From Thermosynechococcus sp. CL-1 (lineage in GTDB: Bacteria > Cyanobacteriota > Cyanobacteriia > Thermosynechococcales > Thermosynechococcaceae): a DNA stretch of 64,000 nucleotides. The notes under the pieces are model-generated. The model saw nothing but the letters and a program-made list of their open reading frames with translations, made no database searches and had not been told where the DNA came from. A program made the translations under genes and the position numbers. The stretch lies in assembly GCF_008386235.1 (NCBI RefSeq), contig NZ_CP040671.1, positions 1,862,001 to 1,926,000 of the forward strand, read 5' to 3'. Positions 13,405-28,808 of the stretch are shown piece after piece (within the stretch, counting starts at the first letter, position 1; every line of letters begins with the position of its first letter).

Positions 13405-14463
13405 ATGCTCTCCCACATCAATGAGAACCAACAACCCCAGATGGTGGATATTAGCGAGAAGGCCGTGAGCGATCGCCGAGCGGTGGCAGAAGCCCTGATT
13501 GAATTGCCACCGGTCTTTCAGGCCTATGTGCAAGGGGGAGATCTCTTTCTCACGAAAGGGCCTGTGGTGCAAACGGCGATTATTGCTGGCACAATGGCGG
13601 TAAAACGCACCGCTGAAGTCATTCCCTTTTGCCATTCGCTGCCGATTACCAGTTGTCGCTTTGAGACGGATATCGAGTCACTTGAGAGTGGCCTTAGAAT
13701 TCGCCTGCGCTGTGAGGTCAAAACCCGCGATCGCACCGGCGTGGAAATGGAAAGCCTGCATGGGGTGACGATCGCAGCCCTCACAATCTACGACATGGCC
13801 AAAGCCCTCAGCCCCCATATTGTGATTCGCGAGGTGCGCCTGCTGGCGAAAAGTGGTGGCAAGAAAACCCTCGGCCAATATCCCCTCTACGGCCTTGTGC
13901 TCACTGGCGGCCAGAGTCAGCGCATGGGTCAGGCCAAAGCCCTGCTAGACTACTACGGCGAACCCCATGCCCAGTACCTCTACAATTTGTTGGCTCAATC
14001 CTGCGAACAAGTCTTTCTCTCAGCGCAACCCAATCAATGGCAGGGGACTCCCCTTGCTGATTTGCCAACACTCGCCGATACCCTGCCTCAGATTGGCCCC
14101 ATTGCCGGCATCCTAACAGCTTTACGTGCCTATCCCCACGTGAACTGGTTAGTGGTGGCCTGTGACTTGCCCTATTTGACCACAGAAACCCTTGCGCCCC
14201 TGTTGCACCATTACCGCGAAGATGTGGTGGCCACCTGCTATCACCATCCCCAAGAGGGTTTCCCAGAGCCATTGTGTGCCATTTATACCCCCCAAGCTCT
14301 GCCGGTATTTGAGGCCGCCTATGCAGAAGGGATCTACTGCCCTGTGAAAATTCTCCAGCGATCGCCCTGCCAGCGGATTGCCCCACCCCAGCCAACCATT
14401 ACTGCCAATATCAACACCCCTGAAGACTATCTTGAAGCCCTACCCCATGTCCGACGCCCCTAA
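13405..14463 (+). CDS. moaC-mobA: Fused MoaC (cPMP synthase) and MobA (Mo-cofactor guanylyltransferase)
   Basis: One reading frame of 352 aa joins two steps of cofactor synthesis. Residues about 12-155 are MoaC, which with MoaA makes cyclic pyranopterin monophosphate: IIAGTMAVKRTAEVIPFCHS, RTGVEMESLHGVTIAALTIY and the AKSGGKK end. Residues about 160-350 are MobA, which transfers GMP to make the MGD form used by nitrate reductase: the nucleotide loop YGLVLTGGQSQRMGQAKALL, GPIAGILTAL and the metal-site region VVACDLPYL. ATG 13405 has GGAGG 8 bp upstream and follows the moaA stop by 4 bp. The linker is only a few residues. I see no frameshift or internal stop, so the fusion looks real. Confidence 0.9.
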   Translation: MLSHINENQQPQMVDISEKAVSDRRAVAEALIELPPVFQAYVQGGDLFLTKGPVVQTAIIAGTMAVKRTAEVIPFCHSLPITSCRFETDIESLESGLRIRLRCEVKTRDRTGVEMESLHGVTIAALTIYDMAKALSPHIVIREVRLLAKSGGKKTLGQYPLYGLVLTGGQSQRMGQAKALLDYYGEPHAQYLYNLLAQSCEQVFLSAQPNQWQGTPLADLPTLADTLPQIGPIAGILTALRAYPHVNWLVVACDLPYLTTETLAPLLHHYREDVVATCYHHPQEGFPEPLCAIYTPQALPVFEAAYAEGIYCPVKILQRSPCQRIAPPQPTITANINTPEDYLEALPHVRRP

Positions 14464-14701
14464 AACAATTTACCTACGCTACTTTGCCCAGTTGCGGGAG
14501 CAAAGCCAACGGGAACAGGAGGAGCGAGTGACCACCGCCCAAACCTATGGCGACCTATACCAAGAGCTAAAGACCCAGTACGGGTTTACCCTTGATCTCA
14601 CCCATGTTAAGGTGGCGGCTAATGATACGTTTGTGACACTGGATCAACCCCTACGAGCAGGAGATAAGGTCGTCTTTATTCCCCCTGTTGCCGGGGGTTA
14701 A
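14447..14701 (+). CDS. moaD: Molybdopterin synthase small subunit MoaD
   Basis: MoaD is the ubiquitin-like sulfur carrier of molybdopterin synthase. I start at ATG 14447 (MSDAPKTIYLRYFAQLREQS), which overlaps the end of moaC-mobA by 17 bp. Length is 84 aa, typical. The fold pattern YLRYFAQLRE...DKVVFIPPVAGG ends in the obligatory Gly-Gly that is thiocarboxylated by a MoeB-type enzyme. A candidate for that enzyme lies at 43748-44920. Confidence 0.92.
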   Translation: MSDAPKTIYLRYFAQLREQSQREQEERVTTAQTYGDLYQELKTQYGFTLDLTHVKVAANDTFVTLDQPLRAGDKVVFIPPVAGG

Positions 14702-14708
14702 CTAAGCG

Positions 14709-15155
14709 ATGGTGATCAAGCAATTTTCCCTAACCAATACTCCCCTAGAGCCAGCTCAGTTGTGGCAGCCCCTTGCCAACTTGCGGGCCGGTGCCTTTGT
14801 TAGCTTTGAGGGTTGGGTGCGCAATCACAACCACGGCAAGATCGTCACTGCCCTAGAATACGAGGTCTATCCCGCCTTGGCTCTTAAAGAAGGAGAACAG
14901 ATCCTAGCAGAAGCCATTGGGAAATTTGACTTGCTGGGGGCGATCGCTAGCCATCGTTACGGCAAACTGACCCTAGGGGAAATTGCTGTGTGGGTAGGGG
15001 TGACGGCGCCTCATCGCCAACAAGCCTTTGCTGGTGCAGCCTACATCATTGATGAAATTAAACACCGCCTACCCATTTGGAAAAAGGAATACTATCTAGA
15101 TGAACCAGCCAGTTGGGTGTACTGTCGTGAGCATCACCATAACAGTCCGTTTTAG
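14709..15155 (+). CDS. moaE: Molybdopterin synthase catalytic subunit MoaE
   Basis: MoaE is the large subunit of molybdopterin synthase, adding two dithiolene sulfurs to cPMP using MoaD thiocarboxylate. Length is 148 aa. Conserved features are GAFVSFEGWVRNHNHGK, ALEYEVYPALA, the ASHRYGKLTLGEIAVWVGV core, and IKHRLPIWKKEYYLDEPASW, with the lysines that contact the MoaD tail. It begins 7 bp after moaD and appears to end the cofactor operon. The next gene belongs to a different kind of module. Confidence 0.94.
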   Translation: MVIKQFSLTNTPLEPAQLWQPLANLRAGAFVSFEGWVRNHNHGKIVTALEYEVYPALALKEGEQILAEAIGKFDLLGAIASHRYGKLTLGEIAVWVGVTAPHRQQAFAGAAYIIDEIKHRLPIWKKEYYLDEPASWVYCREHHHNSPF

Positions 15156-15244
15156 GACGTAAGATGATGTCTATGGTGGCGATCGCCAACCCTTGAGTGT
15201 GGGCACGGATTTTTCAATGAGTATGGCGATCGGAACAGCAATTG

Positions 15245-15580
15245 ATGGAAAATGATGCGATCGCTAATGCTGAAATTTTGTTTGAAGTGACTAGCTCGCT
15301 CGGCTTTTTCGTTCGCACAACGGCTGAGTATTGGCAGTTTATTGTCACAATCAAACATCCAGTCATGGGCGACCGTCTAGCCGATGTCCAAAACACCTTA
15401 AGCGACCCAAATGAAATTCGTCTGAGCAAAGCTGATGCTCAGGTTTACTTGTTTTATCGTGATGATGGTGCGAAGCGTTGGGTCTGTACTGTAGCGAAGC
15501 GCTTAAATGGAGAAGGGTTTCTAATCACAGCCTATCGAACTAGTGTAATTAAAGAAGGAGAACTACTATGGCAGAAGTAA
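15245..15580 (+). CDS. Putative toxin-like small protein paired with DUF2283 protein
   Basis: The product has 111 aa. I start at ATG 15245 (MENDAIANAEILFEVTS) rather than the TTG just before it. The core pattern (YWQFIVTIKHPVM, VYLFYRDDGAKRWVCTVAKR, then GFLITAYRTSVIKEGE) resembles small RelE/BECR-like proteins, often labelled DUF4258 or 'PBECR-like', that cyanobacteria commonly encode next to DUF2283 proteins. The stop region overlaps the next gene by 13 bp, as in toxin-antitoxin operons. Conserved H, R and K positions could be catalytic, but that is inference. No experimental function is known to me. Confidence 0.6.
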   Translation: MENDAIANAEILFEVTSSLGFFVRTTAEYWQFIVTIKHPVMGDRLADVQNTLSDPNEIRLSKADAQVYLFYRDDGAKRWVCTVAKRLNGEGFLITAYRTSVIKEGELLWQK

Positions 15581-15753
15581 AAGTATTTTATGACCGCACA
15601 GGTAACACCTTGGTCGTTTGGTTTGGTAACCCTCAAGATGAGGTGATTTTGATGAAGGATCAGCAGGGGCAAGTGATTGGGTTTGAAACACTTAACTTTT
15701 TACCGCCTTCCAGTGGTCCTGTCCGCATCACCTTCGAAACCATAGCCCCCTAA
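15568..15753 (+). CDS. DUF2283 family small protein (putative antitoxin partner)
   Basis: The product has 61 aa (MAEVKVFYDRTGNTLVVWFG...EVILMKDQQGQVIGFETLNF). The pattern V-x-YD-x2-G-(D/N)-x-L-x-(V/I)-x-F followed by D-x2-G-x-(V/I)-x-G-(F/I)-E is the DUF2283 family, typically short and often next to small toxin-like genes. The start has GGAG about 8 bp upstream, located inside the preceding gene, and overlaps that gene by 13 bp, so the two are translationally linked. The antitoxin role is inferred from arrangement only. Confidence 0.65.
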   Translation: MAEVKVFYDRTGNTLVVWFGNPQDEVILMKDQQGQVIGFETLNFLPPSSGPVRITFETIAP

Positions 15754-15839
15754 GTTCATAGTTTTTGCTTTAGTAAGTCTATAGATAACAATTAAAATTA
15801 TCAATAGTAACCTTTTTGCGTTTGCTGTTTACCTTGATT

Positions 15840-15977
15840 ATGCCTCAGCAATCTACCTACGGATCCACAACTCCCACCTCTCAAAGGCGCACAGAAGAAA
15901 CAGAATGGGTATGGGAGGGCAAGTATGACCAATCAGTTTACCTAATTCAGCGCTGGAACCAAGAGGGTATGCTGTAG
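15840..15977 (+). CDS. Possible 45-aa hypothetical protein
   Basis: An ATG-to-TAG frame of 45 codons (MPQQSTYGSTTPTSQ...YDQSVYLIQRWNQEGML) lies in the 349-bp gap before ntcB. It has no obvious Shine-Dalgarno and no domain I know. The WVWEGKYDQSVYLIQRWN segment looks protein-like, so it may be a small gene or a remnant of a longer one. Its end abuts the ntcB promoter. Confidence 0.3.
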   Translation: MPQQSTYGSTTPTSQRRTEETEWVWEGKYDQSVYLIQRWNQEGML

Positions 15978-15994
15978 GACATTTTCAAGAAACT

Positions 15995-16036
15995 GTATCA
16001 ATCAACACCCTTTACTATCCGAAAGTTGCATAAGAT
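15995..16036 (+). promoter_or_regulatory. NtcA-type promoter of ntcB (one mismatch) with -10 TAAGAT
   Basis: GTA at 15995-15997, eight bases, then CAC at 16006-16008 (consensus TAC, one mismatch), 22 bases, then TAAGAT at 16031-16036. The class II NtcA layout is GTA-N8-TAC-N20-24-TAN3T, so everything except one base fits. Initiation near 16043 would leave about a 60-nt leader to ntcB. This is consistent with NtcA control of ntcB described in other cyanobacteria, but binding is inferred. Confidence 0.6.
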
Positions 16037-16102
16037 TAAGAGCCACAAGAGCCACAATTGCATCAATAGAAATAGACGCAGAGGGAGAACACAGCAAGTA
16101 TT

Positions 16103-17011
16103 ATGCGACTTGATCAGTTGCAATCTTTTTTAGCAGTTGCTGAAACGGGGAGTTTTCAAGCGGCAGCGCGGCGGTGTGGGGTGACGCAACCCACAATTAG
16201 TCGGCAAATTCAAGCTCTAGAAGAAAGTTTGGGAATGCAACTTGTGCACCGCTCGAATCGCGCCAAGTTAACTGTGGCGGGGGACTTGTTTTTGCGCCGT
16301 GCCCATCGCATCTGGCAAGAGTGGCAGGCCGCCAATGCGGAACTCAAAGCCATGCAAAATGGCCAGCAGCAGGAACTCTGCATTGCCGCTATTCACTCCA
16401 TTTGCCGCTACTTTTTGCCCATGCTGTTACCGACGTTTTGCCAAGCATTTCCCCAAATGCAGTTGCGGGTGACTGCCCTAGGGAGCGATCGCGCCCTCAA
16501 AGTCTTGCAGGATAGCTTAGTAGATCTAGCGATTGTCATGGGCGATCGCCACCTCTTAAAACAGTCGGAATGGGTGATTGAACCGCTGTACAGTGAGCCT
16601 GTGCAAGTGCTAATGGCGGCTGAACATCCCCTCGCTGTTAATGAGACCTTGACATGGCAAGAACTAGCTCGCTTTCCCCATGTGGTATTTAAGGATGGCT
16701 ATAGCATGCGCCGCTTGGTGGCTGAAGAATTTAGCCGTCGGGGTTTACCTTGGCAACCCGCTCTTGAACTCAACACCCCTGATGCGTTTATTGCTGTGAT
16801 CCGCGAAAGTGAGATGGTTGCCTTGCTGCCGCGCTCTGCCCTCAAGGAAGCGCTCCACGATCCTGCCCTAGGGATTCGTGATTTATCCACGCCACTGCCC
16901 CTGCGTCAGGTGTTGGCCATTACCACCCACGATCGCCTGACCTTACCCCCCGTTGCTCGATTGCTCACATTGATCCGCCAGCAGGCTGCCCATGAGTCTT
17001 CTCTTTCGTGA
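16103..17011 (+). CDS. ntcB: LysR-type regulator, probable NtcB (nitrite-responsive activator)
   Basis: The product has 302 aa. The N-terminal winged helix-turn-helix is clear: QLQSFLAVAETGSFQAAARR then CGVTQPTISRQIQALEESLG. The rest is the LysR substrate-binding domain. NtcB is the cyanobacterial LysR activator that boosts nitrate-assimilation genes in response to nitrite, together with NtcA. I assign NtcB from the N-terminal sequence style, the nirA operon 10 kb away, and co-transcription with a molybdate transporter. A CbbR-like regulator is less likely because of this context. The 3' end overlaps the next gene by 20 bp. Confidence 0.72.
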   Translation: MRLDQLQSFLAVAETGSFQAAARRCGVTQPTISRQIQALEESLGMQLVHRSNRAKLTVAGDLFLRRAHRIWQEWQAANAELKAMQNGQQQELCIAAIHSICRYFLPMLLPTFCQAFPQMQLRVTALGSDRALKVLQDSLVDLAIVMGDRHLLKQSEWVIEPLYSEPVQVLMAAEHPLAVNETLTWQELARFPHVVFKDGYSMRRLVAEEFSRRGLPWQPALELNTPDAFIAVIRESEMVALLPRSALKEALHDPALGIRDLSTPLPLRQVLAITTHDRLTLPPVARLLTLIRQQAAHESSLS

Positions 17012-18044
17012 TCTGCTCAAAAAAGTCGGCAGTGGTGCCCACACCCACAAAGACCTGAGCCGCGCCGAGGCAGCCTTGGCGTTGCAACTCATGCTGGAGC
17101 AGGTGGCAACCCCTGCCCAAATTGGGGCGTTTTTGATTGCTCATCGGATTAAGCGACCCACCTCGGAAGAGATGGCGGGTATGCTCGATACCTACAACGA
17201 GCTAGGGCCGAAAATTCCAGCGGTTGAGACCAGTTGCCCCGTGATGATCCTCAGTCAGCCCTACGATGGTCGCGATCGCACGTTTCCCCTGAGTCCTTTA
17301 ACAGCATTGGTTTTGGCGGCTGCTGGGATTCCAGTACTTCAACACGGGGGCGATCGCATACCCACCAAAGAAGGCATTCCCCTCATTGAGCTGTGGCGAT
17401 GTTTGGGGGTGGACTGGTCAACCCTAACCCTAGAGCAAATTGCCCACTGCCTAGAGCAAACGGGTTTAGGTTTTGTCTATCTCCCGCGTCATTTTCCAGC
17501 AGCCCAAGGGCTAGTCCCCTACCGGGAGCAAATTGGTAAACGTCCCCCCATTGCCACATTGGAATTAATCTGGAATCCTTACCAAGGGCGCAGTCACCTC
17601 GTAGCAGGGTTTGTTCATCCGCCGACGGAAGGGATCATGCGCGATGCCCTCTATCTCCACGGTGTTCATGAATTTACTACCGTCAAAGGTCTTGAAGGCA
17701 GTTGTGATTTGCCCCGCGATCGCACCGCCATTATCGGCCTTGCCCGTGATCAAGACCCTCCTTGGCAACGCCTGCGTCTCCATCCCCAAGAGTATGGTAT
17801 GGCCAGCAGTAATGTGCCTTGGTCAGAGGAGACAACGACCGCTACAAAAATGATGGCTGCTGTTTTAGCCGCAGAGGAGCAACCCCTCACCACCTCTGTG
17901 ATCTGGAATAGTGGATTTTACCTGTGGCAGGGGGGCAAAGCCGATAGTCTCAATTCCGGACTCGCACTCAGCAGCGAACTCCTCCGTAGTGGTCGGGTGG
18001 CTCAACACCTACAGAAATTGCAAACCATGTTGGAGAAGATATAG
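16992..18044 (+). CDS. Anthranilate phosphoribosyltransferase-like (TrpD2-type) protein
   Basis: The product has 350 aa with the TrpD fold: a helical N-terminal domain (TPAQIGAFLIAHRIKRPTSE) followed by an alpha/beta domain. The catalytic signatures are eroded. The PRPP loop GTGGD is replaced by QPYDGRDRTFPLSP, and the HGNR-S-S-x-GSAD segment by QHGGDRIPTKEG. It is therefore unlikely to be the tryptophan pathway enzyme. Related YbiB/TrpD2 proteins bind nucleic acids. ATG 16992 overlaps ntcB by 20 bp, and its stop abuts the start of the MOT1 gene, which ties it to nitrate and molybdenum physiology. Substrate and role are unknown. Confidence 0.75.
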   Translation: MSLLFRDLLKKVGSGAHTHKDLSRAEAALALQLMLEQVATPAQIGAFLIAHRIKRPTSEEMAGMLDTYNELGPKIPAVETSCPVMILSQPYDGRDRTFPLSPLTALVLAAAGIPVLQHGGDRIPTKEGIPLIELWRCLGVDWSTLTLEQIAHCLEQTGLGFVYLPRHFPAAQGLVPYREQIGKRPPIATLELIWNPYQGRSHLVAGFVHPPTEGIMRDALYLHGVHEFTTVKGLEGSCDLPRDRTAIIGLARDQDPPWQRLRLHPQEYGMASSNVPWSEETTTATKMMAAVLAAEEQPLTTSVIWNSGFYLWQGGKADSLNSGLALSSELLRSGRVAQHLQKLQTMLEKI

Positions 18045-19184
18045 GTGTTGCGGGAGCGACTGCGCTTTAATTGGCAAGAACTCAGTGGCAGTTTTGGTGA
18101 TTTGGGTACGGATTTGCCCCTGTTGGTGGGCATGATCACTGCTGCCCAGTTGGATAGTGCTAACGTCTTCACTTTGTTTGGCGTAGCGCAAATTCTCACG
18201 GGGGTATTCTATGGCCTTCCCATGCCCATGCAGCCCCTAAAGGCAATGGCTGTAATTGTGATGACGGAAAAACTCACTGGATCTATCCTTTGGGCCGGGG
18301 GACTGATGGTAGGAGCAATGATGTTGGTGTTAACGTCCACCGGAATCCTGACCCGGCTGGCTCGCTGGATTCCCCAACCCGTGGTGCGGGGCTGTCAATT
18401 GGGACTGGGACTGTCTCTAGCCGCCGTTGCCCTCAAGACCTACTTGCCCGCGGGTGACCTCTTTGGTTATCTGTTAGGTGTTATGGGCTTTTTGATCTTG
18501 CTCCTTTTGCCCAAGGAACGGGGAGTTCCCGCAGGGTTACTGGTGGTATTGCTGGGGGTGGGTGTAGCGATTAGCCGTGTTCTGGCTGAGCCAGAATTGC
18601 AGTTAACCATTGCTTGGCAGCTTCCCTACCTGCGGCCTTTAGATCCTCAGGCCTTGATTCCCGGACTCGTGCTATTGGCACTGCCGCAGTTACCCCTATC
18701 GATCGCCAATGCAGTGATTGCAACCCAGCAAACTGCCCACGATCTCTTTCCCGATCGCCCCCTCTCGATTCGCCAAATTGGCCTCACGTATAGCCTCACC
18801 AACTTGATCCTGCCCTTCTTTGGTGGCGTCCCCCTCTGCCATGGCTGTAGCGGTTTGGCAGGACACTATGCCCTTGGTGCCCGCACAGGTGGGGCGGTGG
18901 TGATCTATGGCAGTCTCTACCTTCTCTTGGGTCTCTTCTTTGGTTCCAGTGTGGATAAGCTGCTGGAAATTTTTCCCCTCTCGATTTTGGGGGTCATTCT
19001 TTTGTTTGAAGCGTGGGTACTCATGGGCTTTATTAAAGATCAAGCCGCCATGCCCGCAAATTGGATGATTACCCTCTTAGTGGGGGCGATCGCCCTCAGT
19101 GTGCCCCAAGGCTTCTTAGTGGGCACCCTCGTTGGTACAACTCTGTACTACCTCAGCAGAAAAATGCCACTACAACTCTCCTAG
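18045..19184 (+). CDS. MOT1-family molybdate (or sulfate) transporter
   Basis: A polytopic membrane protein of 379 aa with about ten hydrophobic segments. The MOT1 hallmarks are near the N-terminus: FGDLGTDLPLL (about 17-27) and GLPMPMQPLKAMA (about 59-71). A second half repeats SulP-like features (LTNLILPFFGGVPLCHGCSG). MOT1 proteins of plants and algae import molybdate. Bacterial relatives are often just called SulP-like. The start is GTG 18045, directly after the trpD2-like stop (TAG-GTG). The neighbourhood (Moco genes, ntcB, nitrate reductase) favours molybdate as substrate. Its 3' end meets the oppositely transcribed nitrate reductase-associated gene with a 4-bp gap. Confidence 0.82.
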   Translation: MLRERLRFNWQELSGSFGDLGTDLPLLVGMITAAQLDSANVFTLFGVAQILTGVFYGLPMPMQPLKAMAVIVMTEKLTGSILWAGGLMVGAMMLVLTSTGILTRLARWIPQPVVRGCQLGLGLSLAAVALKTYLPAGDLFGYLLGVMGFLILLLLPKERGVPAGLLVVLLGVGVAISRVLAEPELQLTIAWQLPYLRPLDPQALIPGLVLLALPQLPLSIANAVIATQQTAHDLFPDRPLSIRQIGLTYSLTNLILPFFGGVPLCHGCSGLAGHYALGARTGGAVVIYGSLYLLLGLFFGSSVDKLLEIFPLSILGVILLFEAWVLMGFIKDQAAMPANWMITLLVGAIALSVPQGFLVGTLVGTTLYYLSRKMPLQLS

Positions 19185-19188
19185 CCCT

Positions 19189-19644
19189 CTAGGCCAGACC
19201 AAATTCCTGCAATGCTGGCCAAAAATTGCGATTCTCGTGGCCGGGCTGGCTGAGCTTCACAAGGGCAAAGCGTTGGAGGGGGGTCAGGGCTGACCATTTT
19301 TCCACCGTCAAGCTGTGGTGAGATACCTTGATCAGTTGTTGCTGCACTGTCTCTGGCAGTTCAGTGGTGATGTCCCAAGGGTAGGGTTGGGGAATCTCTA
19401 TATCACTCGGTGGGGTTCCATGGGTGTGGGTCACCCAATCCCGCAGTTGCTGACGATAGTCTGCCTGAGCTTCGGGGGTGTCGCAGGGAGTCACCACGAG
19501 CCATTGTCGCTGTTCTTGGGAAAGTTGATGCCAGTGGAGCAGCTTCAGCTTGACCCCACATAAATCTAGTTTATAGCGAACAATCATTGGAATACAGCGT
19601 AACGAAGCCGTGAATTCGGCCTCAAACTCAAAGAAGTGGGACAT
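19189..19644 (-). CDS. Nitrate reductase-associated protein
   Basis: The product has 151 aa (MSHFFEFEAEFTASLRCIPM ... ending PALQEFGLA). This is the cyanobacterial/plastid family named for its constant linkage to narB. It has no catalytic motif that I recognise. I choose ATG 19644 over a TTG one codon upstream. It lies 36 bp after narB on the same strand and so is the last gene of the nirA operon. A role in nitrate reductase maturation or interaction is inferred from linkage only. Confidence 0.8.
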   Translation of the reverse strand: MSHFFEFEAEFTASLRCIPMIVRYKLDLCGVKLKLLHWHQLSQEQRQWLVVTPCDTPEAQADYRQQLRDWVTHTHGTPPSDIEIPQPYPWDITTELPETVQQQLIKVSHHSLTVEKWSALTPLQRFALVKLSQPGHENRNFWPALQEFGLA

Positions 19645-19680
19645 CAATAGCCATAACCCTCCACAGGGAATCAGATTCTA

Positions 19681-22104
19681 TCATTGCTTGAGGGCAGTGC
19701 CCCTTTCCTGCATGGTGGGGGTATGGGGCGTCTGCCGCAACTTCAGGGGCAGCACCTGCACCGCACAGGCTTTGAGTTCTGGCTGCTTTGAGACCGGACA
19801 GGCAATGGGATGGGTCAGTTGGTTTGCCTCACCGCTATCAGCAAAGAGAAAGCCCCAGTGCATGGGTACAAAGAGAGTGCCCGGACGAATGGCCTTGGTG
19901 AGGATGACCGGCAGGCACACTTGACCGCGGCGCGATCGCACCTCCACCCAATCTCCGTCTTTGAGATGTAAGTTTGCGGCATCGTCGGGGTGCATTTCCA
20001 CAAAGGGATCGGGGTGCATTTTTTGAATTTTGGCAATGCGACCGGTACGGGTTTGCGTGTGCCAGTGGCCGTAGAGACGACCCGTTGTCAGGGTAAAGCT
20101 ATAGAGGTTATCGGTGGGTTCAGCCACCCCTTGACTATGAGCAAGGCAAAAATATGCCCGTTGATTGGGGGTGTGAAATCGCCAGTCAGTATAGAGGCGT
20201 TTGGGTTTGCGGGCTTCTGCATCATCCATACCGGCAGGACAGGGCCACTGCAAGGCGCCTAAACGGGCAAGGCGTTCGTGGCTCAGACCCGATTGATCGC
20301 AGGGGCGACCGGCAGTGAGTTGGACAAATTCAGCATAGACGGCAGCGGCATCGACAAATGGGAAGAGATGCCCATATCCCAAGCGGCGCCCCACCTCAGC
20401 AAAAATTTCCCAATCAGGGCGAGCCAGACCGGGGGGCGATCGAAAGGCGGGGGCAAGGGTGACGCGGCGTTCAGAGTTGGTCATCACACCTGTTTTCTCA
20501 CTCCATTGCGCCGCCGGCAAAATCAGATGGGCATAGGCTGCTGTTTCAGTGGGAAAGTAGGCATCTTGGTAGACCGTAAAGGGGGATTGCAGAAAGGCGG
20601 CTTTAGCACGTTCTAAATGGGGAAAGCTAACCGCAGGATTGGTGGCCGCAATCCACAGCAGACCCACTTCTCCCTGTTCTAGACCTTCGACAATTTGCCA
20701 TGCCGTGCGACCGGGGCGATCGCTTATTTGCCCTCGCGGCAGTCCCCAAAAGTCCTCTACCTCTTGGCGATGCTGTGGATTCGTCACTTGGCGATAGCCG
20801 GGCAACAGATGGCTCAAGCCGCCGGCTTCGCGCCCCCCCATGGCGTTGGGTTGCCCCGTCAGCGAAAAAGGACCACTCCCTGGGCGGCCAATTTGCCCCG
20901 TCAACAGGTGGAGATTGATGAGACAACGAGCTTTGGCCGTCCCTTCAGCAGACTGGTTAATGCCCATTGACCAGAGGGAGAGTACCGCTTGGGCATGCCC
21001 CCAATAGCGAGCCGCCTGTTCTAGATCACTTTGAGCAATGCCACAGCGTTTCGCTACCCAGTCTGGGGTGTAGGCCGCCAGCAGCTTTACATACTCGGCA
21101 AAGCCTTGGGTACACTCCTCTATAAATTCAGCATCGATCTGTCCCCATTGCAGTAGCAAATGGCCAATGCCGTGGAGCAGATCAATATCCGTGCCGGGGC
21201 GGATGGCAAGGTGCAGATCCGCCACTTCCGCTGTCGGGGTGCGCCGCGGATCGATCACAATCAGCTTGACGCGGCGATCGCGCTTGTGGTGGTTGCGCAG
21301 ACGATTAAAGACAATGGGATGGCATTCGGCAGTATTAGTACCCATGAGGAACGCACAATCGGTGGCCTCCAAATCGTCGTAGCAGCAGGGGGGGCCATCA
21401 GCACCGAAGCTGGCCATGTAGGCCGACACTGCCGAGGACATACATAGCCGCGAGTTGGCATCAAAGTTGTTCGTACCCAAACAGCCCTTGATCAGCTTTT
21501 GCGCCACATAGTAGTCCTCGGTTTGAAATTGACCGGAACCGTACATACAAATGGCATCGGCGCCCCGCTCACGGCGCACCCATTGGATGCGTTCCACAAG
21601 GCGGGTCATGGCCTCGTCCCACGAAATGACCGTAAAGGGCTGATCCAAACGCTCCCGCCACAGGGGGTAGACCAAGCGATCGCGATCAAGGGCTTCTAGA
21701 ATAGTTGCCCCCTTGACACAGACCATGCCTTGGGAGGAGGGATGCTGGCGATCGCCCCGAATTTTATAGGCTCCCTTGCCTTGAGGGACTGCTTCTAAGC
21801 CACAGCCCACCCCACAGTAGGGACACAGCGAGGACACTGGCTCACTTGGTTCAGGCACAGCACGCCCTTTTTCCTCAACCCGCAGGAATTCACAGGAACA
21901 GCACCTGACCCCTTGCTCCGAGCAAATGATCAGATCCGCTGTAGCATCGCCATAGAAAAAAAGCTCTTGCCTCGGAAACACCACCTGTTGCCAAGTGGGC
22001 TGATTTGACAAATAAATCTGCTGAACGCTCTCGCTGGTATTGCGGTAGTAGCAGAGGTAACGACTGGACTGAACGGCTAACGAGCCAACCCGTGGGGTAC
22101 TCAT
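19681..22104 (-). CDS. narB: Ferredoxin-nitrate reductase NarB with N-terminal DUF1830 domain
   Basis: Reduces nitrate to nitrite with ferredoxin electrons, using Mo-bis-MGD and one 4Fe-4S cluster. The frame encodes 807 aa, about 80-90 more than typical NarB. The cluster motif starts at Cys94 ([12 protein letters not shown], then MVCVKG). Cys221 in NSRLCMSS is the likely Mo ligand. Residues about 15-77 match the small cyanobacterial DUF1830 family ([20 protein letters not shown], then [10 protein letters not shown]) and add a cysteine-rich RCCSCEF stretch. No stop separates the two parts. A separate NarB start at an internal GTG (residue 83 or 90) cannot be excluded. ATG 22104 lies 7 bp after nrtD with a weak ribosome binding site. 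Confidence 0.93.
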
Positions 22105-22111
22105 ACGCTAC

Positions 22112-22927
22112 TTAGTGCCCAAACCGCGTGTACAGAAAGTCAACCACTTGGTTGCGGAGATCGTAGTACTGCGGATCCTCAAGGAGTTGCGATCGCTGCC
22201 GTGGCCGCGGAAAAGGAATCTTCACAATATCGCCAATGCGGGCGGCAGGGCCATTGGTCATCATCACCACCCGATCCGCGAGGTACAGCGCCTCATCAAT
22301 GTCGTGGGTAATCATCAGTACCGTCAGTCGGTGCCTGCGCCAAATCTTTAAGAGTTCATCCTGTAACTCCTCCTTCGTGATGGCATCGAGGGCACCAAAG
22401 GGTTCATCTAAAATCAACACTTCAGGGCGAATGGCGAGGGCGCGGGCGATCGCCACCCGTTGTTTCATTCCCCCCGACAGTTGAGCAGGGCGTTTGTGGG
22501 CAGCCGCTGTTAGCCCCACCAGTTCCAAGTGCTCCTCGACAATTTGGCGCCGGCGTTGGCGAGTTTTCTGGGGATAGACGGACTTCACTGCTAGCTCAAT
22601 ATTTTGATAGGCTGTCAACCAAGGCAGCAGCGCGTAGTTTTGAAACACCATCATGCGATCCGGCCCCGGACGGCGCACGGGCACGCCATTGAGAGTAATT
22701 TCCCCTCGTGTTGGTGCTGTAAAACCCGCAACCATATTCAAGAGTGTGGTTTTGCCGCAGCCGGAATGGCCAATGAAACAGACAAATTCGCCGCTGCTTA
22801 CCTCAAGGTGAATATCCTCAAGTACCACATGGTCGCCATTAGCCGTAGGGTAGGCTTTGCTCACCCCATCAATGCGTAGATGCTGGGTGGCCGTTAAATG
22901 GGGATCAAGACGATAGAGGGTTTCCAT
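22112..22927 (-). CDS. nrtD: Nitrate/nitrite ABC transporter ATPase NrtD
   Basis: The product has 271 aa and is one of two ATPases of the high-affinity nitrate/nitrite importer. Walker A is GHSGCGKTT, the signature is QLSGGMKQRVAIARALA, and Walker B is EVLILDEPFGALD with the switch histidine in MITHDID. It lacks the substrate-binding-like extension of NrtC, which is the normal difference between the two. It lies between nrtC (19 bp upstream) and narB (7 bp downstream). Confidence 0.94.
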   Translation of the reverse strand: METLYRLDPHLTATQHLRIDGVSKAYPTANGDHVVLEDIHLEVSSGEFVCFIGHSGCGKTTLLNMVAGFTAPTRGEITLNGVPVRRPGPDRMMVFQNYALLPWLTAYQNIELAVKSVYPQKTRQRRRQIVEEHLELVGLTAAAHKRPAQLSGGMKQRVAIARALAIRPEVLILDEPFGALDAITKEELQDELLKIWRRHRLTVLMITHDIDEALYLADRVVMMTNGPAARIGDIVKIPFPRPRQRSQLLEDPQYYDLRNQVVDFLYTRFGH

Positions 22928-22946: not shown

Positions 22947-24941
22947 CTAGACAGCAACAACCTCTTGGGGATCAACAGTGCGAATATCAAGGCCACGGCG
23001 AATCGCAGCCGCCTCAATGTAGCCAAGGGGATTATCGGGGTCAAAGGGCAGTCCATCGAAAAGAGCAAAGGTAGAACGATCTGGCTCATTATCTACAACC
23101 TTCAGTTCCCGCGCTGCCGCCCCAAAGAGATCGACTCGCCGCACCTGCTCAACAATTTCTAGCCAGTTTCTCGGGAAGGGCGTAAGTTGCCAGCGAGCCA
23201 ATTGGGTCATGATCCACAGCCCTTCCAACCGCCCAGGACAGGGAGAGCGATCCACATAGAACTGGTGAAACCGGGGTTGAAAAGCAGCAACAATGCCATC
23301 CCCCCGATCAAGGGGTTCCACAAAGCCGGCATAGGCATCCTCAGGAGTACACCCCACATACTCTGGCCGACAAAGCAGTTGGGCAATTTCGGGGCGATGT
23401 TTGATCGTATCGCAGTACTCACAGGCTTCGATCAATGCCTTGACCAACGCTTGGTGTAGCTGCGGGTTGGCCTGCACCCAATCGGAACGCATGCCCACAA
23501 CTTTTTCCGGGTGCCCCGACCAAATCTCCAAATCCGTAGCGACAATCACCCCAATACCCTCGCGCACTGCATGGGAGTTCCACGGTTGACCGACACAAAA
23601 GCTACTGATATGGCCGGCCTTGAGGTGATAGATCATTTGGGAGGGGGGAATCACCAACAACTCGACATCGTAATCGGGGTCAATGCCAGCGGCGGCCAGC
23701 CAGTACCGCAACAGGAGGTTGTGCATTGATGCGGCATGAACCACTCCCAGCCGGGGGCGATCGCCCGTGCGCTGAATATAGGCGCGCAGATCTTCAGCAG
23801 TCTTCACCCCCTGCTGCCACAACTGGCGACTAAAGGTGATGGCATTGCCATTGCGACTCAGTACCAACGAGGTCATCAGCGGTTGTGAAGGCTGACCGTT
23901 TAACCCCAAGGTCATGGCTAAGGGCATGGCCGCCAACAGTTGAGCGCCCGTCAAGCGACCCGCGATCACCCCCATCACCAAGTCCTGCCAGCTTTCTTCG
24001 CGATGCAGCGTGACTGACTCCAAACCATACTTAGCAAAGAAGCCCATTTCCTTGGCGACAATGAGGGGGGCACTGTCCATGAGGGGCATAAAGCCAAGGG
24101 TCAGTTCCACGGGGGTAGTTGGCGCAATGGCCGGTACCGTCAAGGAGGGACGGCGGCGTTTCTGCTGATTGAGAAAGGCAATCATCTCATTGCGCAGGCC
24201 ATAGTAGCTGGGATGGTTGAGCACGTCATGGCGATTGCGGGGACGGGCAAAGGGAATTTTGAGAATTTGGCCAATGTGGGCTTCAGGGCCGTTGGTGAGC
24301 AGCACCACGCGATCCGAAAGCAGTAGTGCCTCATCCACATCATGGGTGACCATAATGCAGGTGGTTTGACTGCCCTGACACACTTGCATCAACTCATCCT
24401 GCAAAGAGCCTCGCGTCAAAGCATCAAGGGCACCAAAGGGTTCATCCAGCAGGAGTACCTCCGGTTGAATCGCCAAGGCACGGGCGATCGCCACCCGTTG
24501 CTTCATTCCTCCCGACAGTTGGGCAGGGAACTTCTCGCGGGCTTTACTGAGGTGCACCTGTTCCAGCGCCGCCTCTACCCGCTGTCGTTGCTCTGCCTTG
24601 CTCAAATGCCCCAGCACCGCCGCCACCGCCAAGGCCACATTCTGGTACACCGTTTTCCAAGGCAACAGCGAATAGTTTTGGAACACCACCATGCGATCGG
24701 GACCCGGTTCCGTCACCTGCCGTCCTGCCATCACCACGCCACCACTGCTAGGCCGCTGAAAGCCAGCAATGATATTCAAGAGCGTGGACTTGCCGCAGCC
24801 AGAGTGACCGACAAGGGAAATAAACTCCCCTTTTTGGATTTCGAGGTGGATATTCTTGAGAGCAATGTAGCGATCGCCCCCGGGCAGATCAAAAACCTGA
24901 TCCACATGGTCAATTTCAATAAACGGTAAAGACTTGGCCAT
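22947..24941 (-). CDS. nrtC: Nitrate/nitrite ABC transporter ATPase NrtC with NrtA-like regulatory domain
   Basis: The product has 664 aa. I start at ATG 24941 (MAKSLPFIEIDHVDQVFDLP) rather than the TTG four codons upstream. The N-terminal 270 residues are an ABC ATPase (GHSGCGKST, LSGGMKQRVAIARALA, LLLDEPFGALD). After a short basic linker (NQQKRRRPSL), the C-terminal 380 residues resemble the binding protein NrtA (PVELTLGFMPLMDSAPLIVA). In Synechococcus this domain mediates ammonium-promoted inhibition of nitrate uptake. That function is family knowledge and is not visible in the sequence. Confidence 0.94.
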   Translation of the reverse strand: MAKSLPFIEIDHVDQVFDLPGGDRYIALKNIHLEIQKGEFISLVGHSGCGKSTLLNIIAGFQRPSSGGVVMAGRQVTEPGPDRMVVFQNYSLLPWKTVYQNVALAVAAVLGHLSKAEQRQRVEAALEQVHLSKAREKFPAQLSGGMKQRVAIARALAIQPEVLLLDEPFGALDALTRGSLQDELMQVCQGSQTTCIMVTHDVDEALLLSDRVVLLTNGPEAHIGQILKIPFARPRNRHDVLNHPSYYGLRNEMIAFLNQQKRRRPSLTVPAIAPTTPVELTLGFMPLMDSAPLIVAKEMGFFAKYGLESVTLHREESWQDLVMGVIAGRLTGAQLLAAMPLAMTLGLNGQPSQPLMTSLVLSRNGNAITFSRQLWQQGVKTAEDLRAYIQRTGDRPRLGVVHAASMHNLLLRYWLAAAGIDPDYDVELLVIPPSQMIYHLKAGHISSFCVGQPWNSHAVREGIGVIVATDLEIWSGHPEKVVGMRSDWVQANPQLHQALVKALIEACEYCDTIKHRPEIAQLLCRPEYVGCTPEDAYAGFVEPLDRGDGIVAAFQPRFHQFYVDRSPCPGRLEGLWIMTQLARWQLTPFPRNWLEIVEQVRRVDLFGAAARELKVVDNEPDRSTFALFDGLPFDPDNPLGYIEAAAIRRGLDIRTVDPQEVVAV

Positions 24942-25006
24942 AGGGTTAAACAACCTAATGTTCGACAGTAAGGGGAAGAGAGGGGAGGATGGGTTACGTG
25001 AGGGAG

Positions 25007-25852
25007 CTAGGAATGCACCTCTTCACCGTGGCTGAGCAGGCAACCCACAAAGGCCACCGAGCGATCCAAGACCAAGCCAACAATGCCGACATAGATCACG
25101 GCAACAATAATTTCACTAATCAGAGAACTGTTCCAGGCATCCCAAATAAAGAAGCCAATGCCGACACCGCCAATGAGCATCTCCGCTGCCACAATCGCCA
25201 ACCAGGACAGCCCAATGCCAATGCGCAGCCCCGTAAACACATAGGGCACCGTTGCTGGTACGAGAATATTCAGGAAATAATCCTTGCGGGAGAGCTGCAA
25301 CACCCGTGCCACATTCTTGTAGTCCTTGGGAATTTGCTGCACACCGACAATCGTGTTGATGATAATTGGCCAAATGGCGGTAATGAAGATCACAAAAATC
25401 GCTGCCGGTTCATTGTCCCGCAGAGCCGCCAAGGAAATGGGCAACCACGCAAGGGGGGGCACCGGACGCAACACCTGCAAAATGGGATCCACTGCATCGT
25501 AGAGCACTCGACTAGAGCCAATCAGCATCCCCAGCCCCACCCCAATGACTGCTGCCAAGGAAAAGCCAACGGCCACCCGCCGCAGACTGGAGAGAATTTG
25601 CCACCCCAACCCCACATCCGTGCCACTCCCTTGATAAAAGGGATCAACTATCAACCCCCAAGTTTCAGTAATAACAGTGAGGGGCGTTGGCAGGCGAAGT
25701 AGCCCCGCCATGCAGACAAACTGCCAAATGACCAAGAAACACAGCACCCCCAAACTACCCAGTACCACTTTGCGGAACATCGCTGACTTCTTGAGATGCT
25801 TTAACCAGCGCCGCCGTCGAGATTGAGTGAAACCCATAGAAGAACTTGCCAT
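25007..25852 (-). CDS. nrtB: Nitrate/nitrite ABC transporter permease NrtB
   Basis: The product has 281 aa with about six membrane spans. A basic N-terminal segment (TQSRRRRWLKHLKK) precedes the first span. The EAA-type loop that contacts the ATPases falls in KDYKNVARVLQLSRKDYFLN. It forms the inner-membrane channel with NrtC and NrtD and receives nitrate from NrtA. It begins 12 bp after nrtA on the same strand. Confidence 0.94.
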   Translation of the reverse strand: MASSSMGFTQSRRRRWLKHLKKSAMFRKVVLGSLGVLCFLVIWQFVCMAGLLRLPTPLTVITETWGLIVDPFYQGSGTDVGLGWQILSSLRRVAVGFSLAAVIGVGLGMLIGSSRVLYDAVDPILQVLRPVPPLAWLPISLAALRDNEPAAIFVIFITAIWPIIINTIVGVQQIPKDYKNVARVLQLSRKDYFLNILVPATVPYVFTGLRIGIGLSWLAIVAAEMLIGGVGIGFFIWDAWNSSLISEIIVAVIYVGIVGLVLDRSVAFVGCLLSHGEEVHS

Positions 25853-25864
25853 TGCTCTTTACCT

Positions 25865-27184
25865 CTAAACTTTTTTCAAATCCAAACCACTCAAGTAGGC
25901 CTGAGGATTTTGGGGATCAAAGGCCACACCATCAAAAAAGGTCTCCACGCCCCGAGAGGTGGTGGTGGGAATTTCCGCTGCCGGCACCCCCATCGCTTGA
26001 GCGGCTTCGCGCCACAGATCCTCACGGTTTACTTTTTGGATGAGAGCTTTAGTGTCCATATCCGGCGGCAAATACCCCCAGCGAATGTCCTCCGTCAGGA
26101 ACCACAGATCATGACTTTGGTAGGGATAAGAGGCATTGTCTCGCCAGAACTTCATCGCTAGATCGGGGTTGTCAAAGGTACGGCCATTGCCAAAGTCAAA
26201 CTTACCGAGGGAGCGATCCAAAATATTCTTCTCGGGTACCTTCAACCATTGCCGCTGGGCAATTATCTTGACCATTTCTGGTTTATTTTCAGGTTGGTCA
26301 CACCACTGTTGTGCTTCCATCACAGCCATCAATAGAGCTTTAGTGGCCTTCGGATGCTGATCAACCCAATCCGCCCGCAAAGTCAGCGATTTCTCAGGAT
26401 GATCCTGCCAAAATTCACCCGTGGTAATAGCATCAACCCCCACCTTTTGATTCACCGCTTGTTGTGGCCATGGCTCACCCACACAGAAAGCTTCCATGGT
26501 TCCAGTTTTCACATTGGCCACCATTTGCGGAGGAGGCACAACGATCACAGAAACGTCCTTCTCAGGATCAATGCCGCCGGCAGCCAGCCAGTAGCGCATC
26601 CACAGATCATGGGTGCCCCCTGGAAATGTCACTGCCACTTTGATCTGCTCTTGCTGATTCTGGGCACGCCGTTCAGCACGGGTTTTAGCAAAGGCCTCCT
26701 TCAGGGGGCTACTGTCAGTCCTGATATTGAGATCCTTGTAAGCATTGGCCAAGACAATTCCCTGACCATTCGTGTTTAACCGCGCCAAGATATACATGGG
26801 TACAGGTTTGCCACCGGTAATGGTTCCCACGGTCATCAGGTAGGGCATTGGTGTGAGAATGTGGGCACCATCAATGCCACCCCCGGCAGAACCCAAGACC
26901 AAGTTGTCGCGGGTCACGCCCCAGGAAGCCTGCTTAATCACCTCCACATCGGGCATCCCATACTTGGCAAACAAGCCCTTTTCCTTGGCAATAATCAGGG
27001 GAGCCGCGTCCGTCAGAGCAATAAAGCCCAGTTTCGCTCCCATCACTTCTGGAGTTTCCGCTAGGGTGGTGGGTTGGGCAACATCACTAGTTTGCTGGCT
27101 ATTACCACAACCGTGGGAGATCAATGTCACGGCCGTTGTAACCGCAGCGGTCACGAGAAAGTGACGCCGGGAGAAAGTCACCAT
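25865..27184 (-). CDS. nrtA: Nitrate/nitrite-binding protein NrtA
   Basis: The product has 439 aa and is the periplasmic substrate-binding component. The N-terminus MVTFSRRHFLVTAAVTTAVT contains a twin-arginine motif (SRRHFLV) followed by a hydrophobic stretch and Cys in LISHGCGN. The cysteine suggests a lipoprotein, although the -3 to -1 residues SHG are not a strong lipobox. The mature region (EVMGAKLGFIALTDAAPLII) resembles the NrtC C-terminal half. It follows nirA by 22 bp, the usual gene order nirA-nrtABCD-narB. Confidence 0.94.
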   Translation of the reverse strand: MVTFSRRHFLVTAAVTTAVTLISHGCGNSQQTSDVAQPTTLAETPEVMGAKLGFIALTDAAPLIIAKEKGLFAKYGMPDVEVIKQASWGVTRDNLVLGSAGGGIDGAHILTPMPYLMTVGTITGGKPVPMYILARLNTNGQGIVLANAYKDLNIRTDSSPLKEAFAKTRAERRAQNQQEQIKVAVTFPGGTHDLWMRYWLAAGGIDPEKDVSVIVVPPPQMVANVKTGTMEAFCVGEPWPQQAVNQKVGVDAITTGEFWQDHPEKSLTLRADWVDQHPKATKALLMAVMEAQQWCDQPENKPEMVKIIAQRQWLKVPEKNILDRSLGKFDFGNGRTFDNPDLAMKFWRDNASYPYQSHDLWFLTEDIRWGYLPPDMDTKALIQKVNREDLWREAAQAMGVPAAEIPTTTSRGVETFFDGVAFDPQNPQAYLSGLDLKKV

Positions 27185-27206
27185 TGGTTTACAAATCCTT
27201 TAATTC

Positions 27207-28769
27207 CTAAACAATCGACAAGGCTAATTCAGCGTGTATCGGAACCTGCAGCGTATGTGAACTGATGGGCTGAGCACCAAAGTGATCAATCAACAGTTGG
27301 CGCAGTACCTCCGGCAGTTCATCACAGGGAATCGCTTTTTTCACACAGGTGCCCAGCTTGGCATCCTTACCGACCTTGCCACCCATGTACAAATCCACGG
27401 CATCCACGGTTTCGCCGTTACGACGGGTTTTTGTACCCATCAGGCCAATATCGGCCACTTGGGGTTGACCACAGGAGTTAGGACACCCGGTCCAGTGAAT
27501 GCGCACCGGTTGAGGGAGCACAAGTTGTTGATTCAGCCAGCGGACGAGGGCAAGGGCACGATTTTTGGTTTCAATGAGGGCAAAGTTGCAAAACTGAGCA
27601 CCCGTGCAGGAAACGAGGGCACGTTCTAAAGGCGGTGGTTCCGGCCGAAACTTAGTGAGGAGGGGTTCGCGCAGCAGGCTTGGTAAAACAGCGCTAGGCA
27701 CATGGGGAATGATCAGATTTTGCTCCACTGTCAGCCGCACTTCCGATTGGCCATAGACTTGAGCTAGCCGTGCCAATTCATAAAAATCGGTGGCATAGAG
27801 GCGCCCTACGGGCACATGCAGTCCCACATAGTTCAACCCCCGCTGTTTTTGGCAATGCACCCCCAGATGATCTCGCTTGTCCCAGTCAATTTCATCCTTG
27901 GGAGCGGCACTGAGGAGTTCAAAGGGGAGTTTAGCGGCCACTGCTGCCCGGAATTTTTCGATACCCCATTCATCAATCAGCCACATGAGCCGCGCTTTTT
28001 GCCGATTGCCCCGTAGGCCATGGTCACGGAAAATTTCAAGGATGGCACGTGAGAGGTGCACCACAGCATCATCGGGAGGCACCCAAGCATTGAGGGGGAT
28101 AGCGGCAGCGCAACGCCGAGCAGAGAAGAAACCACCGACCAAAACATTGAAGCCCAAACGCCCTTGCCGATAGGCAGGCACAAAGGCAACATCGTTAATT
28201 TCGGCATGGACAGAGTTATCCCGCCCCCCCTCGATCGCAATGTTGAATTTGCGGGGTAGATTGCTAAATTCCGGATTCCCCTGACCGTTGTTGGTAATCA
28301 TCGCCTGCAATTTCATAATCAGGGGGCGAGTATCAACGAGTTCGGCCGCATCAATGCCCGCCACTGGCGATCCAGTGAGGTTGCGCACATTGTCCATGCC
28401 GGATTGCACAGAGGTCAGGCCACAGGCTTGCAGCCGCTCTATGATTTCGGGAATATCCTCAATGGGCAGACCGCGAATCTGAATGTTTTGACGGGTGGTG
28501 ATGTCACCATTGCCGTTCTCACCATAGCGGTCCACAATTTCGCCAAGGGTTCGCAGTTGTTGACTGGTGAGAATCCCATTGGGTACCCGCAGCCGCATCA
28601 TGAACCTGCCGGGGGTAACGGGGCGAAAGAAAATCCCAAGCCACTTGAGGCGAACATCGCGGTCAGCTTCAGGAATGCTTTCCCAGCCCATGGCTGCGAA
28701 TTTCTCTAGCTCTTGTTTAACCGCTAAGACATCTTTCTCTTTTTTAATGGCTTCAATTTTGTTGCTCAC
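27207..28769 (-). CDS. nirA: Ferredoxin-nitrite reductase NirA
   Basis: Six-electron reduction of nitrite to ammonium with siroheme and a 4Fe-4S cluster. Cluster and siroheme ligands are C-x5-C in VSCTGAQFCNF and C-x3-C in WTGCPNSCGQ. The repeated sulfite/nitrite reductase domains are complete. I choose GTG 28769 (MSNKIEAIKKEKDVLAVKQE, 520 aa), because the NtcA promoter predicts initiation near 28802, which would leave only about 12 nt before the upstream TTG at 28790. A purine-rich GACAAGGG precedes the GTG. It is the first gene of the seven-gene operon ending at 19189. Confidence 0.93.
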   Translation of the reverse strand: MSNKIEAIKKEKDVLAVKQELEKFAAMGWESIPEADRDVRLKWLGIFFRPVTPGRFMMRLRVPNGILTSQQLRTLGEIVDRYGENGNGDITTRQNIQIRGLPIEDIPEIIERLQACGLTSVQSGMDNVRNLTGSPVAGIDAAELVDTRPLIMKLQAMITNNGQGNPEFSNLPRKFNIAIEGGRDNSVHAEINDVAFVPAYRQGRLGFNVLVGGFFSARRCAAAIPLNAWVPPDDAVVHLSRAILEIFRDHGLRGNRQKARLMWLIDEWGIEKFRAAVAAKLPFELLSAAPKDEIDWDKRDHLGVHCQKQRGLNYVGLHVPVGRLYATDFYELARLAQVYGQSEVRLTVEQNLIIPHVPSAVLPSLLREPLLTKFRPEPPPLERALVSCTGAQFCNFALIETKNRALALVRWLNQQLVLPQPVRIHWTGCPNSCGQPQVADIGLMGTKTRRNGETVDAVDLYMGGKVGKDAKLGTCVKKAIPCDELPEVLRQLLIDHFGAQPISSHTLQVPIHAELALSIV

Positions 28770-28808
28770 GGTTGTTGCCCTTGTCTTCAACGGGTTACTT
28801 GAACACCC

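Follow-up and report, generated by a model that had tools for sequence, protein, structure and literature searches.

In Thermosynechococcus sp. CL-1, one open reading frame carries a DUF1830 domain ahead of a complete nitrate reductase NarB, and DUF1830 phylogeny together with gene order make it very probable that this gene is a fusion of pirN, known as a separate regulatory gene beside narB, with narB itself. The gene lies in the window, that is the whole stretch of 64,000 nucleotides that was analysed (contig NZ_CP040671.1, positions 1,862,001 to 1,926,000). The coordinates of the gene, its parts and its neighbours are given in Table 1.

Architecture of the fused gene and its operon

The frame starts with ATG 7 nt past the stop codon of nrtD and encodes 807 aa. 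Cys94 is the first residue of the motif CPYCGVGC, and this bears out a preliminary description made from the sequence alone, according to which about 90 residues of the nitrate reductase frame precede the 4Fe-4S motif at this position. The same description had assigned residues 15-77 to DUF1830. When searched against Pfam, the whole protein matched DUF1830 (PF08865) at residues 18-64 with 27.1 bits and the first 91 residues alone matched at residues 18-66 with 31.9 bits (E 1.3e-7), both over the curated cut-off of 25; the domain was thus correctly recognized, and its span is corrected to about 18-76. Behind DUF1830, the domains Molybdop_Fe4S4, Molybdopterin and Molydop_binding followed in order with scores far over the Pfam cut-offs. 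The same three domains make up the catalytic part of cyanobacterial NarB, the ferredoxin-dependent assimilatory enzyme, from which the fusion protein differs by about 90 extra N-terminal residues including DUF1830. Assignment of the fusion as NarB is based on these three domains in order and on the nitrate operon context, both of which were found, and none of the 25 NCBIfam models listed reached its own cut-off. The unfused NarBs given for a sample of the phylum (see below, matches listed) were 56-73% identical to the fused one, except for 84% in G172, a genome of another family.

Table 1. Features of the fused gene and of neighbouring genes in the window
Feature	Position	Strand	Remarks
pirN::narB fusion gene	19681..22104	minus	807 aa plus stop
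N-terminal tail, residues 1-17	22054..22104	minus	motif SLAV(Q/K), common to 7 fused proteins
DUF1830 (PirN) domain, residues 18-76	21877..22053	minus	Pfam and conserved positions
Linker, residues 77-93	21826..21876	minus	in-frame GTG83 (21856-21858) and GTG90 (21835-21837)
4Fe-4S domain of NarB (PF04879), residues 90-138	21691..21837	minus	Pfam
Molybdopterin domain (PF00384), residues 143-573	20386..21678	minus	Pfam
Molybdopterin dinucleotide binding domain (PF01568), residues 670-781	19762..20097	minus	Pfam
nrtD (nitrate ABC transporter ATPase)	22112..22927	minus	directly upstream of fusion
nrtC (ABC ATPase plus NMT1-like domain)	22947..24953	minus	
nrtB, nrtA, nirA	25010..28790	minus	named by recognition
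narM-like gene (PF09655, nitrate reductase-associated)	19189..19647	minus	directly downstream of fusion

The PF09655 protein encoded beside narB is presumably NarM. Like PirN it is a small protein encoded next to narB, but its family is unrelated to DUF1830 and its gene is separate in the window. As PF09655 (Nitr_red_assoc) had no Pfam match in the fusion protein and occurred only in the separate gene, identity of the DUF1830 domain with this neighbouring protein was ruled out. Altogether, the gene order in the window is nirA-nrtABCD-[pirN::narB]-narM-like gene; an operon nir-nrtABCD-narB has been named for the genus Thermosynechococcus (PMC9403480).

Divergent from the narM-like gene, the plus strand of the window at 14062-19181 holds Mo-cofactor-like genes and a LysR-type regulator gene, both recognized by eye, as well as a Glycos_transf_3 gene and a MOT1 molybdate transporter gene assigned by Pfam. 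The Glycos_transf_3 gene we take to be CnaT-like. Together with the neighbourhood of the fusion, this region was read as a nitrate/molybdenum island.

A structure predicted for the DUF1830 domain alone (7 sequences) had six strands and a confident core, with a mean pLDDT of 79.1. In sequence, nothing in the PDB matched the 91-residue N-terminus up to E = 1, and for the domain fold Foldseek produced no match at E <= 0.001 (605 at E <= 10). VIA-align reached a Z of at most 6.3, with a de novo designed protein as best match, and such middling Z values are common; on the basis of the predicted fold, no clear relative is claimed among solved structures. The fold predicted for the whole protein (23 sequences; mean pLDDT 54.9, DUF1830 domain under 30) was too poor for docking.

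PirN type and occurrence of the fusion

Nine positions are invariant among 19 narB-linked DUF1830 sequences, the window copy being one of the 19, and the window copy keeps all nine (C18, Y20, N22, Q28, F43, P44, F50, C71 and L74). A DUF1830 tree was calculated from 72 segments and 70 columns, with a long-branch warning. In this tree, seven fused domains, the stand-alone copy of G018 and the narB-adjacent copies of G098, G102 and G114 formed one group of 11 (support 99/85) that stands apart from PirC-like sequences. A second, separate DUF1830 gene of the window genome (G000:C1:2203959-2204156) was placed among the PirC-like sequences. PirC/CfrA (Sll0944) is also a DUF1830 regulator that binds an enzyme, but its branch is separate from that of the fused domain, and it was rejected as the identity of the latter. 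Several narB-adjacent copies, e.g. those of G009, G010, G012 and Leptolyngbyaceae, fell outside the group of 11, and adjacency to narB is thus not limited to one DUF1830 lineage.

In a midpoint-rooted NarB tree, the fused NarBs, their domain-less relatives, those of G098, G102 and G114 and three other genomes formed a group of 17 (100/98). The gene order is nrtABCD-pirN-narB-narM in G098 and G114 and, in the stretch examined, nrtB-nrtC-nrtD-pirN-narB in G102; the fused domain occupies the gap between nrtD and narB, where these three genomes have a separate pirN. For Synechocystis sp. PCC 6803, we take sll1450-1453 to be nrtABCD and sll1454 to be narB. The genes tested beside pirN in that organism were sll1450-1453 upstream and sll1454 downstream, and by these locus tags PirN (Ssl2814), likewise a NarB-linked DUF1830 protein, has the same place in the nitrate operon, although it is a small stand-alone protein there and the N-terminal domain of NarB here (PMC13205821). 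The redox, assembly or regulatory module first supposed in front of NarB is no unknown redox module; by tree and by position before narB it is a DUF1830 domain of PirN type.

Within the family, 29 genomes were searched, and the frame ahead of the CPYCG motif was read in each of the 26 with NarB. Seven were fused, namely five of the eight narB-bearing genomes of the genus (G000, G019, G020, G024, G026) and one genome in each of two further genera (G016, G018). Three (G009, G010, G012) had a separate DUF1830 gene immediately 5' of narB, in three others, all in the genus, the domain was deleted (G021, G025, G028), and in the remaining 13 no DUF1830 was seen in about 1.5 kb upstream. The 3 of 11 genomes of the genus without NarB match (G022, G023, G027) are drafts of 80-220 contigs. 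Since the same architecture occurs in seven genomes of three genera, the fusion is not due to chance or artefact. In the preliminary description, DUF1830 had been taken as known only from stand-alone proteins; such copies do occur in relatives, to which the seven fused copies are now added. In G018, a stand-alone pirN lies immediately ahead of the fusion (L011/L201, C1:270036-272708) and the two DUF1830 parts form a pair in the tree (96/81), as tandem duplication would produce.

In a census of named loci, the best 80 of 573 confirmed narB loci were read, all 80 with the motif; records close to the window genome may be absent from this set, and two loci had less than 700 nt of upstream sequence. 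The fusion was found in none of these 80, and six (L071, L073, L098, L122, L133, L137) had a separate same-strand DUF1830 gene ahead of narB. A phylum sample of 386 genomes, 90% complete or more, contained NarB matches in 156 and matches to the PirN-type alignment in 152 genomes. Among the matches listed, only the narB frames of G000 and G018 began in a DUF1830 part with no internal stop, and a separate DUF1830 gene directly ahead of narB was present in at least 7 genomes (G018, G082, G098, G102, G114, G205, G307). As the censuses overlap, with identical DUF1830 segments in L122/G012, L071/G205 and L137/G082, their counts are not additive. DUF1830 frames longer than 300 aa among the matches listed were the two fusions and one 424-aa open frame in G205. 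Near its C-terminal end the latter carries a PirC-like DUF1830 (L203, G205:C38:19749-19943), which looks like a DUF1830 fusion of a second kind.

No report of a NarB fusion was found in the literature searched, mainly the main texts of freely available papers. PirN was described in 2026; the main text of that paper names Thermosynechococcus nowhere, and where ‘fusion’ or ‘fused’ was met with in it, the word refers to tags or to an instrument (PMC13205821).

Loss of the domain, selection and start codons

The four relatives without the domain retain different remnants. In G028 the tail is still present together with an altered beginning of the domain, followed by an in-frame jump to the start of NarB, whereas only a few residues remain in G021 and G025. 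In G172 the tail is kept (WPHPGSLALQ vs WPQLGSLAVQ in G019) and DUF1830 is missing; the nrtABCD-narB-narM block of this genome (G172:C39:168000-176500, L200) is 77-85% identical to that of the window and was likely transferred horizontally, with domain loss. One clade of G021, G025, G028 and G172 was rejected (p-AU 0.0001), but one clade of G021, G025 and G028 was not (p-AU 0.106), so the three losses in the genus may be one event. The in-frame deletions in the four relatives represent at least two independent events. Each of the four genomes has one DUF1830 match, located away from narB and of the PirC kind by position. A frameshift between the domains giving two proteins in sister strains, as considered in the preliminary description, was not found; 3 of the 8 sister genomes have the in-frame deletion instead. 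Because the four relatives deleted DUF1830 yet keep NarB, the enzyme can do without it. The domain is thus modular and dispensable in the four domain-less lineages; this is the strongest objection to an important role.

Some further differences were seen around the domain. The tail motif SLAV(Q/K), which reads TLAVQ in G016, persists in two genomes without the domain, as SALAVQ in G028 and as GSLALQ in G172. Judged from its conservation, this motif ahead of the domain may serve some function by itself. Compared with the 6 unfused NarBs in the alignment, the fused NarBs and their domain-less relatives have a loop behind CGLEAVP (after residue 107) that is shorter by about 6-12 residues, and the NarB frame of G028 (L007) also ends earlier, with 700 aa counted from the motif compared with 714 in the window.

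When substitution rates were compared over 10 within-genus pairs, dN/dS of the DUF1830 domain was 0.09-0.34 and that of NarB 0.03-0.05, a several-fold faster evolution of the domain, with the highest value (0.34) for the window genome vs G024. The window copy has 7 private residues in the domain; of its nearer relatives, G024 has 3 and G020 has 2, while G019 and G026 have 8 and 9. These ratios, like the deletions, would suit a domain that became fused when the stop between the genes was lost, and that is now a dispensable passenger in the course of being lost. This explanation is nevertheless unlikely, as omega was below 1 in 4 of 4 pairs tested (p 0.027, 3e-5, 4e-7 and 4e-10; the pairs share genomes and are not all independent), all 7 fused copies retain the invariant residues and the fusion occurs in three genera. 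Substitution pattern thus shows purifying selection on the fused domain.

As pointed out in the preliminary description, residues 83 and 90 of the window gene are encoded by in-frame GTG codons. Each occurs in 4 of the 5 genomes of the genus that carry the fusion, and unfused NarBs begin about 8-12 residues ahead of the motif, so the fusion could be apparent only, with NarB made from one of the internal GTG codons or with the chain cut in the linker to give two proteins. However, GTG83 is ATC in G020, GTG90 is GTT in G026, and the linker of G016 contains no ATG, GTG or TTG, which precludes internal initiation as a general mode. In addition, neither a stop nor a frameshift separates the domain from NarB in the seven fused genomes, and a search of 21700-22400 for sigma-70-like sites was negative, although this is a weak test. 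Internal initiation at GTG83 or GTG90 is possible in the window strain; overall, an only apparent fusion is quite improbable.

A cysteine cluster at the junction, RCCSC (C68, C69 and C71), had been put forward as joining the two parts, and as a redox switch or cluster ligand between them it could draw on the invariance of C18 and C71 in the domain. In the other six fused proteins, however, C68 was present in 1, C69 in 2 and C61 in none, and C18 and C71 in all six; only C71 of the cluster is common to all seven. C18 and C71 are found in the stand-alone narB-linked copies too, and they belong to the DUF1830 family as such. The cluster was therefore discarded as a conserved feature, and a redox function of the junction is highly improbable.

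Possible action of PirN on NarB

In Synechocystis, the ΔpirN mutant on nitrate kept its narB mRNA and had far less NarB protein, and NarB was restored without PirN where narB mRNA was more than 20-fold higher (PMC13205821). PirN is a validated partner of PII and binds PsbO as well. The authors favour translational control of narB but leave NarB stability possible, an in vitro degradation assay having given no obvious difference, and they propose a lumen fraction of PirN with a role at PsbO (PMC13205821).

As a whole, we consider the most plausible reading, and one somewhat more probable than not, to be a PirN-NarB fusion in which PirN acts on the NarB chain in the cytosol, here in cis. The conserved job of PirN would then be an action directly on the NarB polypeptide. 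In the fusion, DUF1830 would leave the ribosome first and fold first, and the folded domain might help the following 4Fe-4S/molybdenum protein to accumulate through folding, cofactor loading or protection from proteolysis. The chances that the fused domain supports NarB accumulation in cis are about even. The fusion would also fix PirN and NarB at one-to-one, independently of a separate nitrate-induced PirN. An action on the nascent or finished NarB chain would explain why loss of PirN lowers the protein and not the mRNA, and the fusion fits a regulator of this kind because the operon order is kept and the regulator would fold first. By eye, the fusion protein has no signal peptide; in contrast to Ssl2814, for which a lumen fraction is proposed, the fused domain could not reach the lumen by itself, and the fusion does not fit a model in which the same PirN molecule must be in the lumen.

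This domain may also give PII a docking place on NarB. Alternatively to a supporting role, it could thus serve mainly as a docking site through which PII tunes NarB activity according to 2-oxoglutarate and ATP/ADP state, similar to PirC. Besides the validated PirN-PII interaction, this explanation has a precedent in the paralogue PirC (Sll0944), a DUF1830 protein and PII partner (PMC6603209, PMC7344720), which when freed from PII inhibits phosphoglycerate mutase and of which a protomer was modelled over the catalytic centre (PMC12077085). On the other hand, the amount of NarB falls in ΔpirN, indicating a positive role for PirN, and the domain has been lost in relatives. We regard a PII switch as possible but less likely; PII switching and slow decay of the domain partly overlap with the reading that the domain supports NarB accumulation in cis. 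The small nitrite reductase regulator NirP1 was also considered; according to its paper no functional domain was predictable for it, and DUF1830 is not named there.

As to how PirN may control NarB, the 2026 description prefers translation and a thylakoid-lumen partner, with protein stability still possible (PMC13205821). A regulator built into its own target speaks for a direct effect on the enzyme, and a lumen step has no room in this arrangement. A broader proposal, which we put forward only tentatively, is that PirN touches NarB directly in the cytosol; NarB of these strains would be self-stabilised and PII-addressable, the first reduction step in nitrate assimilation would be set post-translationally in cis by the C/N state, and the PsbO link would be secondary. 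The genus provides matched strains with the domain (CL-1, G000; PKUAC-SCTE542, G020; S. lividus PCC 6715, G019) and without it (BP-1, G028; NK55, G021), and the natural fusion in some hot-spring cyanobacteria offers a direct route to testing how PirN works.
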